DNA of 35,721 nucleotides, taken from assembly GCA_903915955.1 (NCBI GenBank), contig CAIWUU010000078.1:1-35721 (forward strand), written 5' to 3'. Shown here one piece after another: positions 3,159 to 15,685 of this stretch. Source of the stretch: an uncultured Chlorobiaceae bacterium. GTDB lineage: Bacteria; Bacteroidota; Chlorobiia; Chlorobiales; Chlorobiaceae. The notes beneath the pieces were generated by a model that did not search any database, was not told where the DNA came from, and saw only the letters and a program-made list of their open reading frames with translations. A program made the translations under genes and the position numbers. The first letter of the stretch is position 1. Each line of letters starts with the position of its first letter.

Positions 3159-5042
3159 ATGAAACAATCGCCTCGCATAAAAGGGAGACCGGGCAGAAAG
3201 ATACTTGCATTTTTCTACAGCATTTTCCGAAAAAGCAGATATTTCAAAGGCAATTCTCAACAGTTTTTTCGACTGAGCCTTGATTATCTACTCGTTCAAC
3301 TGAATCTGAATCAAGATATACCATTTCTTCTTGTTGCGGTATGTGTGGGGCTTCTGACCGGCTATGTCGCAGTGGTATTTCATGATGCCATTATGACGAT
3401 CAGTACCATGATTTTTACTGACCTTCGAACAGTTGGTAAAAATAGTATCATCGACACTTACTGGATGGTTATTCTCCCCTTCATCCCCGCGCTTGGTGGC
3501 TTGCTGGTTGGTCTTTACAATGCGTTTGTGTTGAAAATGAGGCCTGGACATGGTCTTGCCTCAGTCATCAAAGCGGTTGCGCAGAATGATGGTATTATTA
3601 AACGCAACCTGTGGATTCATAAAAGTATAACATCGGTACTGAGTATTGGGTCAGGTGGTGGGGGCGGACGTGAAGCTCCAATTGTCCAGGTCGGCGCGGC
3701 CATTGGTTCAACGGTAGCACAGATGTTGCGATTTTCGCCAAACAAGACCCGTACACTGCTCGGTTGCGGGGCTGCGGCAGGTCTGGCAGCGGTGTTTAAC
3801 GCACCTATCGGCGGTGTCATGTTTGCTGTTGAAGTGCTGCTTGGGGACTTCAGCGTTAAAACATTCAGCCCCATTGTCATTGCGGCGGTCATCGGCACAG
3901 TACTTTCAAGAAGTTTTCTGGGAAACTCTCCAACGTTTCAGGTTCCTGAATACACTCTGGTGTCGAACACAGAGCTGCTCTTCTACTGCCTGCTCGGCAT
4001 TCTCGCCGGTCTTTCAGCCGTGATGTTCATCAAGGTCTATTACGCCATCGAGGAGTGGTTCCAAAGAGTTGAAAAACGATGGGAAATACCTGTTTGGGCA
4101 ATGCCAGCTATCGGCGGGCTCATGAGTGGCGTTATCTGTATCTGGCTTCCCGGTCTGTACGGATTTTCCTATGAAGCCATTAACCATGCAGTTCACGGCA
4201 CTGAAAGCTGGGCCAACATGATTGGCATTTACCTCTTCAAACCGGTCGTTGCCGGTCTCAGTATCGGTTCTGGAGGATCAGGCGGAATGTTTGCGCCAGC
4301 CATGAAAATGGGTGCGATGCTTGGGGGGATGTTCGGCAACATTGTCCATACGGTTTTTCCATCCATAACCGCCAGCTCGGGCGCTTATGCCCTTGTTGGC
4401 ATGGGTGCATTGACAGCGGGCATCATGAGGGTGCCTTTAACCGTCATCCTTATTCTCTTTGAGGTAACCGGTCAATATGAGATTGTGCTGCCTATCATGT
4501 TTGCCGCCGTTACCTCGTCGCTTATTGCCCGGCTTACCTACCGCCACAGTATGGAGAGCTACATTCTTGAAAAGGAGGGGGTCAGGCTGGGGTTTGGCAT
4601 AGCCCTGTCAGTAGCGGAGCATATCAGTATTACCGACATCATGAAAACAGACTATGTGAAATTCAGCGAGTCAGAAAGTGCGGCAACAATGATTGATGTG
4701 TTTTTCAATACACCGGAATCAAGCTTTCTGGTTACAGATGATCACGGCCTTTTTTCTGGAATTATCAGCCTTGATGAGATGAGAATTCTTCTTCGGGAAG
4801 ATGTTCTTGTTGGATTGATTGCCGAGGACATTGTGAAAAAGGATCTCCCTGTACTTTATAACACCTCAAAACTTGACGAAGCGCTTAAACTGTTTGAAAT
4901 TTCAGATTATGATGTACTGCCGGTACTGGATACCAGGAACAGCACCCTGCTGGGCGTGGTTCGTCAGGAGGATGCCTTTGCCTATTATCGCAAGCAGCTC
5001 AATCTGTATGGAACCGATCAGTTTGAAGGCCAGAAACTATGA
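3159..5042 (+). CDS. ClC-family chloride channel/transporter with CBS domains
   Basis: This 627-residue membrane protein has the ClC core (about residues 55-465) and a C-terminal cytoplasmic pair of CBS domains (about 490-615). The anion-site signatures are GHGLA (130-134, replacing GSGIP), GREAP (170-174, replacing GREGP, gating Glu172 kept) and GGMFAP (375-380). At the place of the proton glutamate of E. coli ClC-ec1 (E203), the sequence FAVEVLLGDF has Val226, as in ClC channels. The protein moves chloride or similar anions across the cytoplasmic membrane; the CBS pair may bind adenine nucleotides. The ATG at 3159 has no good ribosome-binding site, and the N-terminal 50 residues are basic and less family-like, so the start is uncertain. 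Confidence 0.9.
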   Translation: MKQSPRIKGRPGRKILAFFYSIFRKSRYFKGNSQQFFRLSLDYLLVQLNLNQDIPFLLVAVCVGLLTGYVAVVFHDAIMTISTMIFTDLRTVGKNSIIDTYWMVILPFIPALGGLLVGLYNAFVLKMRPGHGLASVIKAVAQNDGIIKRNLWIHKSITSVLSIGSGGGGGREAPIVQVGAAIGSTVAQMLRFSPNKTRTLLGCGAAAGLAAVFNAPIGGVMFAVEVLLGDFSVKTFSPIVIAAVIGTVLSRSFLGNSPTFQVPEYTLVSNTELLFYCLLGILAGLSAVMFIKVYYAIEEWFQRVEKRWEIPVWAMPAIGGLMSGVICIWLPGLYGFSYEAINHAVHGTESWANMIGIYLFKPVVAGLSIGSGGSGGMFAPAMKMGAMLGGMFGNIVHTVFPSITASSGAYALVGMGALTAGIMRVPLTVILILFEVTGQYEIVLPIMFAAVTSSLIARLTYRHSMESYILEKEGVRLGFGIALSVAEHISITDIMKTDYVKFSESESAATMIDVFFNTPESSFLVTDDHGLFSGIISLDEMRILLREDVLVGLIAEDIVKKDLPVLYNTSKLDEALKLFEISDYDVLPVLDTRNSTLLGVVRQEDAFAYYRKQLNLYGTDQFEGQKL

Positions 5043-5195: not shown

Positions 5196-5777
5196 ATGAT
5201 GTGGAAATCACTCCTTGTACAACGAACCATACCTCTTTCGGTATCATATCTGTTGCTGATTCTTGCTGGCATCGCTCTTGATAACATCCTTCATATTGCC
5301 CATCTTGTATGGGTTGGGCGATATCTTGGAATTGTGGGCACCATTTTTTTTGCAATGTCTGCGGTCTATTCAGCCCGCAAAAGCAAGTTTATAAAAAATG
5401 GATCGCTTAAATTTTTTCTCAAGCTTCACTGCCATTCAGGATGGATCGCCACTCTCATGATTATTGTTCACTCGGGAGTGCATTTCAACGCCATTCTGCC
5501 CTGGGCAGCGACAGCATTAATGATGATTGTCACGGCAAGCGGCCATGTCGGGCAACACCTGGTTAAAAAACTCAAGGAGGAGGCAAAGCTTAAAATGAAA
5601 CAGCTCGGAATCAATCCTGAAAAGCAAGAAAAGGCCGATAATGAACAATACTGGGATAGCGTGACGCTGAAAGCTCTTGAGCAATGGAGAGCGGTACACC
5701 GACCCCTGGTTGCTTTTTTAGTTGCATTGACGTCAGTCCATATTATTTCCATATTTTTCTTCTGGAACTGGAGGTAA
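5196..5777 (+). CDS. Membrane di-heme b-type cytochrome-like protein
   Basis: This 193-residue protein has four to five predicted membrane helices (about 13-33, 40-60, 77-97, 101-117, 169-190). Two helices each carry a pair of histidines 14 residues apart: H78/H92 and H168/H182. That is the H-x13-H spacing by which cytochrome b and ferric-reductase-like proteins hold two stacked b hemes in a four-helix bundle. Further histidines (H80, H96, H117, H121) lie near the ends. No flavin or NAD domain is present. The stop is 3 bases before the 20-heme cytochrome gene, whose Shine-Dalgarno sequence lies in the last codons here. The likely job is to pass electrons between the quinone pool and that cytochrome. 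The family name is not certain, and the start has no clear ribosome-binding site. Confidence 0.7.
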   Translation: MMWKSLLVQRTIPLSVSYLLLILAGIALDNILHIAHLVWVGRYLGIVGTIFFAMSAVYSARKSKFIKNGSLKFFLKLHCHSGWIATLMIIVHSGVHFNAILPWAATALMMIVTASGHVGQHLVKKLKEEAKLKMKQLGINPEKQEKADNEQYWDSVTLKALEQWRAVHRPLVAFLVALTSVHIISIFFFWNWR

Positions 5778-5780
5778 CTG

Positions 5781-7343
5781 TTGAAACCATTTCTTGTTTT
5801 TATCGCATCGGCCATCATCCTTGCTGCCCTTGCACTGGCGTACCCCGATCGGCTCATTAACCCGGGCACACTGACGAGAGGCCATAAGGCACTCAAGGGA
5901 GATTGCCTTGCCTGCCATACACCATTCCAAAGCATATCATCAGTGCAGTGCATCAGTTGTCACAAACAGAGTGACATCGGTCTGAAAACGGTTGCTGGTG
6001 CGATGCTGAAAAACAACAGTAGCAAGGTTCTTTTCCACAAAGGCCTTGCCGACAACTCCTGTATTGACTGCCACACCGATCACAAAGGGAAATGGACCAC
6101 AAAAGAGGTCAAGCCGTTCCGGCATGAATCGCTTGCACCTGCACTCAAGAATGACTGTATCACCTGTCACAGCAATCAAAAGCCTGCTGATACACTGCAT
6201 CAATTTGCTCAGGGAAGTTGCGCAGAGTGCCACCGCACCACAAAATGGAAACCGGCTACATTCGATCATAAAAATCTCGCCGCTTCAGATGCGAAAAAGT
6301 GTATCAGTTGCCACAAGGCTGAGAGACCAGCCGATAACCTCCACCAGAGTGTCTCAACCAGTTGCGCTGAGTGCCACCGCACCACAAAGTGGAAACCGGC
6401 TACCTTTGATCATAAGAATCTCGCCGCTTCAGATGCGAAAAAGTGTATCAGTTGCCACAAGGCTGACAGACCAACCGATAAACTCCACCAGGGTGTCTCG
6501 ACCAGTTGCGCTGAGTGCCACCTCACCACAAAGTGGAAACCGGCTACCTTTGATCATAAGAATCTCGCCGCTTCAGATGCAAAAAAATGTATCAGTTGCC
6601 ATAAAGCTGACAGACCAGCCGATAATCTCCATCAGAGCGTTTCAACCAGTTGCGCTGAGTGCCATCGCACCACGAAGTGGAAACCGGCAACCTTTGACCA
6701 TAAAAACCTTGCCGCTTCAGCGGGAAAAGCATGCATCAGTTGCCATAAAGCTGACAGACCAACCGACAACCTCCATCAGAGTGTCTCTACCAGTTGCGCT
6801 GAGTGCCATCGCACCACAAAGTGGAAACCGGCAACCTTTGACCATAAAAACCTTGCCTCTTCAGCGGGAAAAGCATGTATCAGTTGCCACAAGGCTGAGA
6901 GGCCAGCCGACAAGCTCCACCAGAGTGTCTCGACCAGTTGCGCTGAGTGCCATCGCACCACAAAGTGGAAACCAGCAACCTTTGACCATAAAAACCTTGC
7001 TGCTTCAGCGGGAAAAGCATGCATCAGTTGCCACAAGGCTGATGAACCGGCCGACAATCTTCACCGGCAATCGCAGGCAAGCTGTGGAAGCTGCCATAGC
7101 ACCAGCCGATGGAAACCGGCAACATTCGACCACAACCGATATTTCAGACTCGACAGCGATCACCGTGTAAGCTGCAAAACCTGTCACACTGACCCGGGGA
7201 ACTACAAAAAGTATACCTGTTACAACTGTCATGAACACTCTGAGGCACGGATGGCATACAAACATCGCAAAGAGGGGATCTCGAATTATCAGAATTGCGC
7301 AAAATGCCATCGTAATGGCGAAGCAGAGGAAAGTGACGATTAG
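5781..7343 (+). CDS. 20-heme c-type cytochrome with tandem diheme repeats
   Basis: This 520-residue exported protein starts at TTG with GGAGG 7 bases upstream. An N-terminal hydrophobic segment (residues 3-21) acts as a signal peptide or anchor. I count twenty CxxCH heme-attachment motifs and 21 other histidines, enough to give each heme a second His ligand. Residues 147-434 are six tandem 48-residue units, each with CAECH, WKPATFDH, CISCH and a LHQ-type His: two hemes plus two free His per unit. A partial seventh unit follows, and non-repeated four-heme N-terminal and three-heme C-terminal parts cap the array. Such proteins are periplasmic or surface electron carriers. The adjoining b-type gene suggests a quinone-linked conduit. 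The redox partner is unknown. Confidence 0.9.
   Translation: MKPFLVFIASAIILAALALAYPDRLINPGTLTRGHKALKGDCLACHTPFQSISSVQCISCHKQSDIGLKTVAGAMLKNNSSKVLFHKGLADNSCIDCHTDHKGKWTTKEVKPFRHESLAPALKNDCITCHSNQKPADTLHQFAQGSCAECHRTTKWKPATFDHKNLAASDAKKCISCHKAERPADNLHQSVSTSCAECHRTTKWKPATFDHKNLAASDAKKCISCHKADRPTDKLHQGVSTSCAECHLTTKWKPATFDHKNLAASDAKKCISCHKADRPADNLHQSVSTSCAECHRTTKWKPATFDHKNLAASAGKACISCHKADRPTDNLHQSVSTSCAECHRTTKWKPATFDHKNLASSAGKACISCHKAERPADKLHQSVSTSCAECHRTTKWKPATFDHKNLAASAGKACISCHKADEPADNLHRQSQASCGSCHSTSRWKPATFDHNRYFRLDSDHRVSCKTCHTDPGNYKKYTCYNCHEHSEARMAYKHRKEGISNYQNCAKCHRNGEAEESDD
6219..7082 (+). repeat. Six tandem 144-bp repeats inside the multiheme cytochrome gene
   Basis: Six in-frame 144-base units run from the first CAECH codon to the degenerate CGSCH unit at 7083. 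Units 1-3 share SDAKK before CISCH, while units 4-6 share SAGKA. This block structure is what successive duplication or gene conversion leaves behind. Nucleotide identity between units is high, with mostly third-position differences. Confidence 0.92.
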
Positions 7344-7516: not shown

Positions 7517-7786
7517 ATGGCACAAGAAGAGAGCATACAAAAGCCTCAAACATCAATAACCCTTTCGGAACTTCCAGCGGGAGCTAAAGTGCTGATCCCG
7601 ATTATTGGCATTCCTGTGGCTCTTCATGCCTTGACCGGGGCTGCAGTTGGCGCATTGACCTTTGCAGTTGGCGCATTGACCTTCGCAGTCGGAGCCTTGT
7701 TCGTTGGGCACAATAAAGGAAAAATGCCTAAATCTCCTGAGCAATCATCGCCCAAAAGCACTGTTGAATCTGAAACAACTGCATGA
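7517..7786 (+). CDS. Small membrane protein with Gly/Ala heptad repeats
   Basis: I do not recognise this 89-residue protein. It has a polar N-terminus, then one long hydrophobic stretch (about residues 24-64) with a GALTFAV unit repeated twice and a third partial copy, GALFVGH, resembling a glycine-zipper membrane hairpin. A hydrophilic Ser/Pro/Glu tail follows. The repeat is exact enough at DNA level to be a recent duplication. Its stop overlaps the start of the downstream Nudix gene by four bases (ATGA), so the two are translationally coupled. No clear Shine-Dalgarno sequence precedes the ATG; TATAAT at 7466-7471 could be a -10 element, but no matching -35 is seen. Confidence 0.65.
   Translation: MAQEESIQKPQTSITLSELPAGAKVLIPIIGIPVALHALTGAAVGALTFAVGALTFAVGALFVGHNKGKMPKSPEQSSPKSTVESETTA
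7643..7684 (+). repeat. Two tandem 21-bp repeats encoding GALTFAV
   Basis: Two adjacent 21-base copies at 7643-7663 and 7664-7684 differ only at the last base. A third, diverged partial copy follows. The repeats lie in the hydrophobic part of the small membrane protein and keep frame, so slippage would add or remove seven residues. Confidence 0.85.
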
Positions 7787-14669: not shown

Positions 14670-14830
14670 CGACAAACCCCTTGATGCCGGATATTAACAT
14701 TTTGGTTTGAAGTACATATTTATTATCATTGAGTGAGTCTTTTTTCGCGTCAACCAACACCGCAGCAGCAAAAAAAAGGAATAAAATCTGCGGCTCTTTT
14801 TACCACATTATTAACAATGGAGTAGCGCTC

Positions 14831-15685
14831 ATGGCAAAAAAAGCTTTACTTGTTGGGGTTAATGATTATGCCCCTGTCGGTGCCGGTGGACCTGATCTGC
14901 GCGGATGCGTAAACGATGTCCGGGATATGGCGAACACTCTTTCTGTTCTTGGTATTGTACCATCGAGCCCGACAACAATGCGGATTCTGACTGATTCCCG
15001 GGCGATCAGGGCCAATATTATGGCTGGACTAAAGTGGCTGACTACCGGAGCAAAAGCCGGAGACGTACTGGTATTCTACTATTCCGGCCATGGCTCACAA
15101 ATGGTTGATGTTGATGGAGATGAACCGGATGGAAAGGATGAAACAATTTGTCCGCACGACTTTGCAACCGCTGGCATGATCAAGGATGACGATTTACGCA
15201 AGGCATTTGCCACTCTGCCTGCCGGGGTCAATCTTGATGTTATTCTCGACTCCTGCCATTCCGGGACCGGAACAAGAGAGTTAGCCGCCCTTGCATCTAC
15301 TGATGAGAAGGTGAGTGTCAATTATCGGTTCGTCGAACCACCCATCGACTGGGGCTTCTTCCTTGATGCAAATCCATCACTCCCTGTGCGCGGCATACTC
15401 AAGCCTAAAAAAGGAGAAAAAGACGTAAGCATTGCTGCAGGACTGAATCACGTCTTGTGGGCCGGATGCCGCGACAACCAGACCTCTGCCGAAACATCCA
15501 TTGGAGGCGTTTACAGAGGAGTATTCACCTATAACTTCTGCAAAGTTTTAAGAGGGGCTGGTGTAACAATCACACGAAAAAGACTCGACAGTCAGATATC
15601 AACAGATATCAAAGCTATGGGCTACGCCCAAGTACCCCAGCTTGAAGGTACGGTAGCGTCTGTTGCTGAAAAGGTATTTACTTAG
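14831..15685 (+). CDS. Metacaspase-like cysteine protease (peptidase C14)
   Basis: This 284-residue protein has the caspase p20 fold: an N-terminal strand KKALLVGVNDY, then YYSGHGSQ with catalytic His87, and VILDSCHSGTGT with catalytic Cys142. Asp-rich DVDGDEPDGKDE (93-104) next to the active site resembles the acidic part of metacaspases, which cleave after Arg or Lys and often need Ca2+. No signal peptide or extra domain is present, so it would act in the cytoplasm. I chose the ATG at 14831 because GGAG stands 9 bases upstream and the fold starts there; a longer TTG-started frame from 14729 adds 34 non-conserved residues. The protease may be the effector of the LRR protein just upstream; otherwise its substrate is unknown. 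Confidence 0.9.
   Translation: MAKKALLVGVNDYAPVGAGGPDLRGCVNDVRDMANTLSVLGIVPSSPTTMRILTDSRAIRANIMAGLKWLTTGAKAGDVLVFYYSGHGSQMVDVDGDEPDGKDETICPHDFATAGMIKDDDLRKAFATLPAGVNLDVILDSCHSGTGTRELAALASTDEKVSVNYRFVEPPIDWGFFLDANPSLPVRGILKPKKGEKDVSIAAGLNHVLWAGCRDNQTSAETSIGGVYRGVFTYNFCKVLRGAGVTITRKRLDSQISTDIKAMGYAQVPQLEGTVASVAEKVFT

Follow-up and report, generated by a model that had tools for sequence, protein, structure and literature searches.

A multiheme cytochrome with a variable number of diheme units and its five-helix membrane partner in green sulfur bacteria

Gene pair and anatomy of the cytochrome

The window analysed here is the whole 35,721-nt contig CAIWUU010000078.1 of assembly GCA_903915955.1 (uncultured Chlorobiaceae bacterium), read on the forward strand. 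The host draft genome of 2.52 Mb belongs to a green sulfur bacterium. Its contigs carry both the FMO antenna protein and dsrA, and its close relatives are Chlorobiaceae. At 5781-7343 the window encodes a multiheme c-type cytochrome, and the gene of a small membrane protein, absent from the first-pass annotation of this DNA, ends 3 bp before its TTG start codon. The ribosome-binding site of the cytochrome was read directly from the DNA and sits at the end of this partner gene. The features of the pair are listed below.

5196-5777, + strand: partner gene, five-helix membrane protein of 193 aa, or 192 aa from the second ATG at 5199
5770-5774, + strand: ribosome-binding site GGAGG of the cytochrome gene
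5781-7343, + strand: multiheme cytochrome gene, TTG start, 520 aa, 20 CxxCH motifs
5781-5846, + strand: N-terminal hydrophobic helix, modelled at residues 3-20 (pLDDT 82-87), the rest of the model being poor
5781-6218, + strand: constant N cap, hemes 1-4, 146 aa, a length kept in nearly all orthologues
6219-6362, + strand: diheme unit 1, block A
6363-6506, + strand: diheme unit 2, block A
6507-6650, + strand: diheme unit 3, block A
6651-6794, + strand: diheme unit 4, block B
6795-6938, + strand: diheme unit 5, block B
6939-7082, + strand: diheme unit 6, divergent boundary unit
7083-7340, + strand: constant C cap, hemes 17-20, 86 aa

The earlier count of 20 CxxCH motifs and 21 additional His was reproduced exactly in the 520-aa ORF, which contains 41 His in all. 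All 40 Cys (40/40) lie within CxxCH motifs. Shuffled versions of the protein held 0.24 CxxCH on average and at most 3 in 2000 shuffles, compared to 20 in the real sequence. The domains PF14522, PF02085, and PF14537 matched above their curated cut-offs. TRF reported a 144-bp period with 5.9 copies, 90% matches, and 0 indels at 6216-7065.

The protein was cut at every CxxCH. The spacings between motifs were 15, 37, 32, and 21 in the N cap, 27 and 21 in the units, and 30, 15, and 26 in the C cap. The cytochrome thus consists of a constant four-heme N cap, a series of diheme units, and a constant four-heme C cap, so that its heme number equals 8 + 2n, with n = 6 in the window. The first-pass annotation had described a twenty-heme cytochrome built on six nearly identical repeats. 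The six 48-aa diheme units hold, but they carry only 12 of the hemes, and the other 8 belong to non-repeated caps. The likeness of the units is also unequal. Counted from the CxxCH, DNA identity was 90-93% among units 1-3 and 92% between units 4 and 5, whereas unit 6 was only 73-84% identical to the rest and nearest to units 4-5. Therefore, the two blocks proposed earlier are real, and their membership is {1-3} and {4-5} plus a divergent last unit rather than 1-3 and 4-6.

Across relatives, the His of the FDH motif (unit position 17) and of the LH motif (position 42) were invariant in 82/82 units of 48 aa, as were W10, F15, and P37. A small secreted cytochrome with a signal-like N terminus and one copy of the unit motif was found in many Chlorobium genomes (L112:1631-2050, - strand; L113:917-1171, + strand; L114:1168-1404, - strand), although none was detected in the window's own genome. 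Both the retained His and the stand-alone protein give good support to the earlier idea that each unit is a self-contained diheme module, in which the two free His would complete bis-His ligation. A gene for a conserved small membrane protein (start FNWRVFISFGLF...) adjoins that of the stand-alone diheme cytochrome.

The N-terminal hydrophobic helix is followed at once by the invariant residues P28, G29, and H35, and for this reason it is probably an uncleaved inner-membrane anchor. The AlphaFold2 model of the cytochrome, based on a 45-sequence alignment, reached a mean pLDDT of 49 and a pTM of 0.23 and was not used for geometry or fold search.

Several other ORFs lie around the pair. A small 89-aa ORF after the cytochrome is common to many relatives, with an in-frame 21-bp repeat at 7642-7689. 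A CLC chloride channel with a CBS domain (3159-5042) lies between a Zn-ribbon gene and the gene pair. It is missing at that place in L011, L014, L029, and L031 despite the same gene order. A stand-alone caspase-like peptidase is encoded at 14729-15685 (PF00656, E 1.2e-29).

Unit number and turnover of the array

Fifty-eight loci were found in one scan of named genomes. After removal of partial, gapped, or divergent proteins, 45 intact ones remained, including that of the window. Every value of n from 0 to 6 was seen among them, corresponding to 8 to 20 hemes, and the heme number was even in 45/45. The units were 46-50 aa long, with 48 aa in 82/99, and the N cap measured 146-148 aa in nearly all intact proteins. 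The cultured C. ferrooxidans has n = 5. Outside the Chlorobia, there is a single unit in Magnetovibrio MV-1 (n = 1), none in Propionivibrio or Accumulibacter (n = 0), and more than one in a gammaproteobacterial MAG locus (L044).

On a tree built from the caps only, n must have changed at least 20 times across 37 Chlorobia. Near sisters differed in several cases, with n of 4 and 3 in L008/L013, 4 and 6 in L003/L002, 3 and 1 in L023/L028, and 3 and 0 in L020/L040. The even heme number, the full range of n, and these unlike sisters agree with the proposal that array length evolves by unit duplication.

Such fast changes among near sisters could also come from a neutrally drifting tandem repeat or from assembly artefacts, in which case length would have no functional meaning. 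Indeed, the array is broken at contig ends or N runs in L007, L009, L024, and L039. However, the frame, the ligands, and the even heme number are always kept, and dN/dS between units was mostly 0.03-0.17 (0.34 for units 5-6), which indicates purifying selection. An artefact is further opposed by the separately assembled window and its sister L002, both with n = 6, by n = 5 in the cultured C. ferrooxidans, and by the expectation that repeat collapse lowers n. We therefore regard drift or artefact without functional meaning as quite unlikely, although n itself may drift. The uniformly broken gene that the first-pass annotation had named as counter-evidence is excluded by the intact orthologues and the low dN/dS between units. 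The broken array of L009 was only apparent, being a run of N and not a mutation.

The age of the units was estimated from dS. In the window, the nearest units differed by 0.24 (units 1-2) and 0.28 (units 4-5). These values equal or slightly exceed the dS of 0.14-0.25 that separates the caps and partner from those of the 95%-identical sister L002. The dS between the two blocks was about 0.5-1.3. The earlier suggestion of recent expansion or gene conversion therefore fits the closest units, which are about as old as the sister divergence, but not the older blocks.

The blocks also shift between sisters. At the same n = 6, the division into block A, block B, and last unit is 3+2+1 in the window versus 2+3+1 in L002. 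Middle units were 97% alike within L008 and 94% within L010, compared to about 83% between these two proteins, and their last units were 87% alike between proteins. In arrays with n of at least 2, the nearest unit lay in the same protein for 18/38 internal units, 4/23 first units, and 6/23 last units. Most first and last units had their nearest match in another protein, usually in the corresponding end unit (13/23 and 17/23, respectively). These counts and the likeness within proteins suggest that turnover favours the middle of the array and that the ends are older.

Turnover is not constant, because most units match by position between C. ferrooxidans (L005) and its relative L006. A unit length of 46 or 47 aa is peculiar to some proteins and common to their units, which would follow if units multiplied once an indel had arisen. 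The unit number would change as 144-bp repeats are duplicated or lost in frame, mainly among the middle units.

Membrane partner, reductase operon, and known systems

The AlphaFold2 model of the partner (pLDDT 78.5) places helices at residues 6-34, 38-60, 71-95, 100-136, and 162-189. Two HX13H pairs are present, and in this model H78/H92 fall on helix 3 and H168/H182 on helix 5. The HX13H His, S115-G116-x-x-G119 on helix 4, and W164, which gives WX3HX13H, were invariant in 40 partner homologues. From the two HX13H pairs, the partner is predicted to bind two b-hemes. The PF01794 (Ferric_reduct) profile matched with E 2e-4 and 21.7 bits, below its curated cut-off of 28. A Foldseek search of the partner against the PDB gave nothing significant, with NOX5, SpNOX, and cytochrome b561 appearing only at E > 0.7.

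The partner gene directly precedes the cytochrome gene in nearly all loci and lies downstream only in L056. Among 36 same-genus genomes, the partner was present essentially wherever the cytochrome was. Five genomes (G001, G011, G020, G022, and G035) have neither gene, and G029 has the cytochrome only as a contig-edge fragment. Second cytochrome copies stand without an adjacent partner in L019, L027, L042, and L046. The cytochromes of L042:3295-6756 and L046 lack the b-type partner and carry just 8 hemes. A DUF4405 membrane protein and a two-component system precede the cytochrome in one Chlorobium locus among the entries L042:3295-6756, L046, and L005:2474-7416.

In eight proteobacterial loci, a reductase gene with FAD, NAD, and C-terminal 2Fe-2S domains lies directly upstream of the partner (e.g., L050:4125-5414, L045:3880-5172, and L054:4082-5404). 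These reductases have an N-terminal hydrophobic stretch and are 51-57% identical to the MV-1 copy. The ninth proteobacterial locus, L047, has the reductase in pieces only. No Chlorobium locus has a reductase gene beside the pair, and a genome search gave only weak generic domain matches. The recurrence of the pair after a reductase gene in Proteobacteria suggests that electrons are exchanged across the inner membrane. Holders of this reductase-b-c operon include the magnetotactic Magnetovibrio MV-1 and a Magnetococcales MAG.

Similar pairs have been described. He et al. 2017 (PMC5566968), in the section "Other multiheme cytochrome c", report pairs of multiheme cytochromes (MHC) and five-helix inner-membrane proteins (IMP) with variable heme number and name C. 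ferrooxidans, and that section gives no function. As described there, a variable-heme cytochrome adjoins a five-helix protein that bears HX13H on its third and fifth helices, and another redox gene is often found too, as in the present loci. The IMP gene is often immediately downstream in those pairs, whereas it is upstream in the window and nearly all relatives. The likeness is one of described features, and the C. ferrooxidans gene of that section is a candidate for the same gene. The PCC3 and PCC4 inner-membrane proteins of the same source share SGXXG on helix 4, WX3HX13H on helix 5, and a many-heme cytochrome with the pair studied here. However, the PCC3 IMP, as described, has about 300 aa compared to 193 aa in the partner, which lacks the Trp four residues before the helix-3 motif. 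PCC3 clusters also include a porin and an extracellular multiheme cytochrome, neither of which was recognised in the ORFs that surround the gene in the window.

Other multiheme families were compared as well. MtrA/DmsE (TIGR03508) is also a multiheme chain, but the match of 75.5 bits is far below the curated cut-off of 192.2, and no porin partner occurs here. To our knowledge, MtrA has no unit array. Among solved structures, the sixteen-heme cytochrome HmcA gave the best profile match (2e84, E 1.6e-14), although the NCBIfam model NF045713 gave 47.6 bits against a cut-off of 400. We know of no HmcA built from 48-aa diheme units. A single-sequence search of the PDB with the cytochrome returned no match at E 0.001. 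Membership in NapC/NirT (PF03264) was rejected. Its 37.7-bit match fell in the repeat units (residues 372-419) and not after the N-terminal anchor, and a genome-wide NapC search returned nothing at its threshold.

The repeat-built cytochromes of Geobacter, such as GSU1996, are also modular wires, and PF14522 matches the window cytochrome too. GSU1996-type modules are triheme c7 domains, in contrast to the 48-aa diheme units here, and these cytochromes have, as far as we know, no b-type partner pair. Grafting and pruning of heme modules has reportedly been described by Soares et al. 2022, and it is well established that such modules can be gained and lost. In the open-access literature searched, we did not find the cap-unit-cap anatomy, a full 8-to-20 series in one genus, shifting blocks, a free-standing unit, or the reductase operon for this family.

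Proposed function

We consider it fairly probable that the two genes form one inner-membrane electron-transfer module, whose c-type arm is built with interchangeable diheme spacers. In this module, the two b-hemes of the five-helix protein would cross the membrane, and the cytochrome, tethered by its N-terminal helix, would receive electrons at heme 1. The bis-His c-heme chain would then reach from the membrane into the periplasm. The caps may provide the specific contacts, the N cap with the b-type partner and the C cap with the next carrier, and each diheme unit between them would lengthen the chain by two hemes.

In Proteobacteria, the path may run from NAD(P)H through FAD/2Fe-2S and the two b-hemes to the c-heme chain. 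In Chlorobium, the pair would work with another cytoplasmic or quinone partner. Because of the reductase operons, transfer from the cytoplasm or quinol to the periplasm is likelier than the reverse.

The 10 hemes of MtrA extend over 80 angstroms and the 20 hemes of MtrCAB over 185 angstroms (PMC12203936). By this yardstick, an extended 20-heme arm would measure about 160-185 angstroms and an 8-heme arm about 65-70. It is possible, and we propose it only tentatively, that the unit number is a tuned trait, with selection setting the length or capacity of a tethered periplasmic wire through units added or removed. If so, Chlorobium would provide the same wire in a natural set of seven lengths, provided that it is extended like MtrA and MtrCAB. 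However, n varies so freely that the precise length may not matter. This counts against the proposed module, as do the second cytochrome copies that stand without an adjacent partner, the Chlorobium loci with no reductase gene beside the pair, and the fold search of the partner with no significant match.

The same freedom of n, which ranges over 0 to 6 within a single genus while the partner stays the same, would suit a charge reservoir. The units would then store periplasmic electrons, for example to buffer light/dark shifts of the photosynthetic chain, and n would reflect capacity and not reach. Near-identical units would have similar potentials, as suits storage. A wire would agree equally with the conservation of the caps and with the tight pairing to a membrane b-protein, and the reservoir appears unlikely.

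Heme gain and loss, and the dependence of conduction on chain length, are usually studied by comparing unrelated proteins. Here, the same caps and partner occur with 0 to 6 units in close relatives, so chain-length dependence becomes testable on natural proteins, with one likely electron wire in seven natural lengths of 8 to 20 hemes. The array is also a clear case of heme-number evolution through duplication of a defined module. With the pair, the inventory of green sulfur bacteria, C. ferrooxidans included, grows by a widespread membrane electron module that is still uncharacterised.

The first-pass annotation had raised an extracellular or mineral electron donor, for which the pair would be a conduit carrying electrons inward from the surface, possibly from Cyc2-like porin-cytochromes. 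The photoferrotroph C. ferrooxidans does carry the gene pair with its five units, a Cyc2-like porin-cytochrome occurs elsewhere in the window's genome, and a porin gene is reported from the gene cluster of one C. ferrooxidans cytochrome of this kind (PMC5566968). However, neither the window nor the 6 kb around the C. ferrooxidans copy showed a recognisable porin or surface cytochrome, and both proteins are inner-membrane in character, with an anchor-like N terminus in one and a predicted b-type nature in the other. Genomes that have dsrA and lack a strong Cyc2 carry the pair as well, and n shows no relation to either. The donor conduit is therefore very unlikely, and the inner-membrane module remains the preferred reading.

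A link of n to sulfur or iron metabolism was likewise rejected, as n covers similar ranges whether or not a genome has dsrA, and whether or not it has a strong Cyc2. The Cyc2 query was a self-written consensus peptide around the published motif, and its matches serve as a screen only.

The Cyc2-like candidate of the host genome (L096:1658-2947, contig C176) would be a fused monoheme cytochrome-porin. It reads AIPSWARKY before the CxxCH, compared to the motif AXPXFAR[Q/K][T/Y], and has no PXL after it. Its presence makes surface iron chemistry possible, and nothing links it to the multiheme gene. A c-type cytochrome gene with two CxxCH (869-1456) lies just upstream of the candidate in L096.
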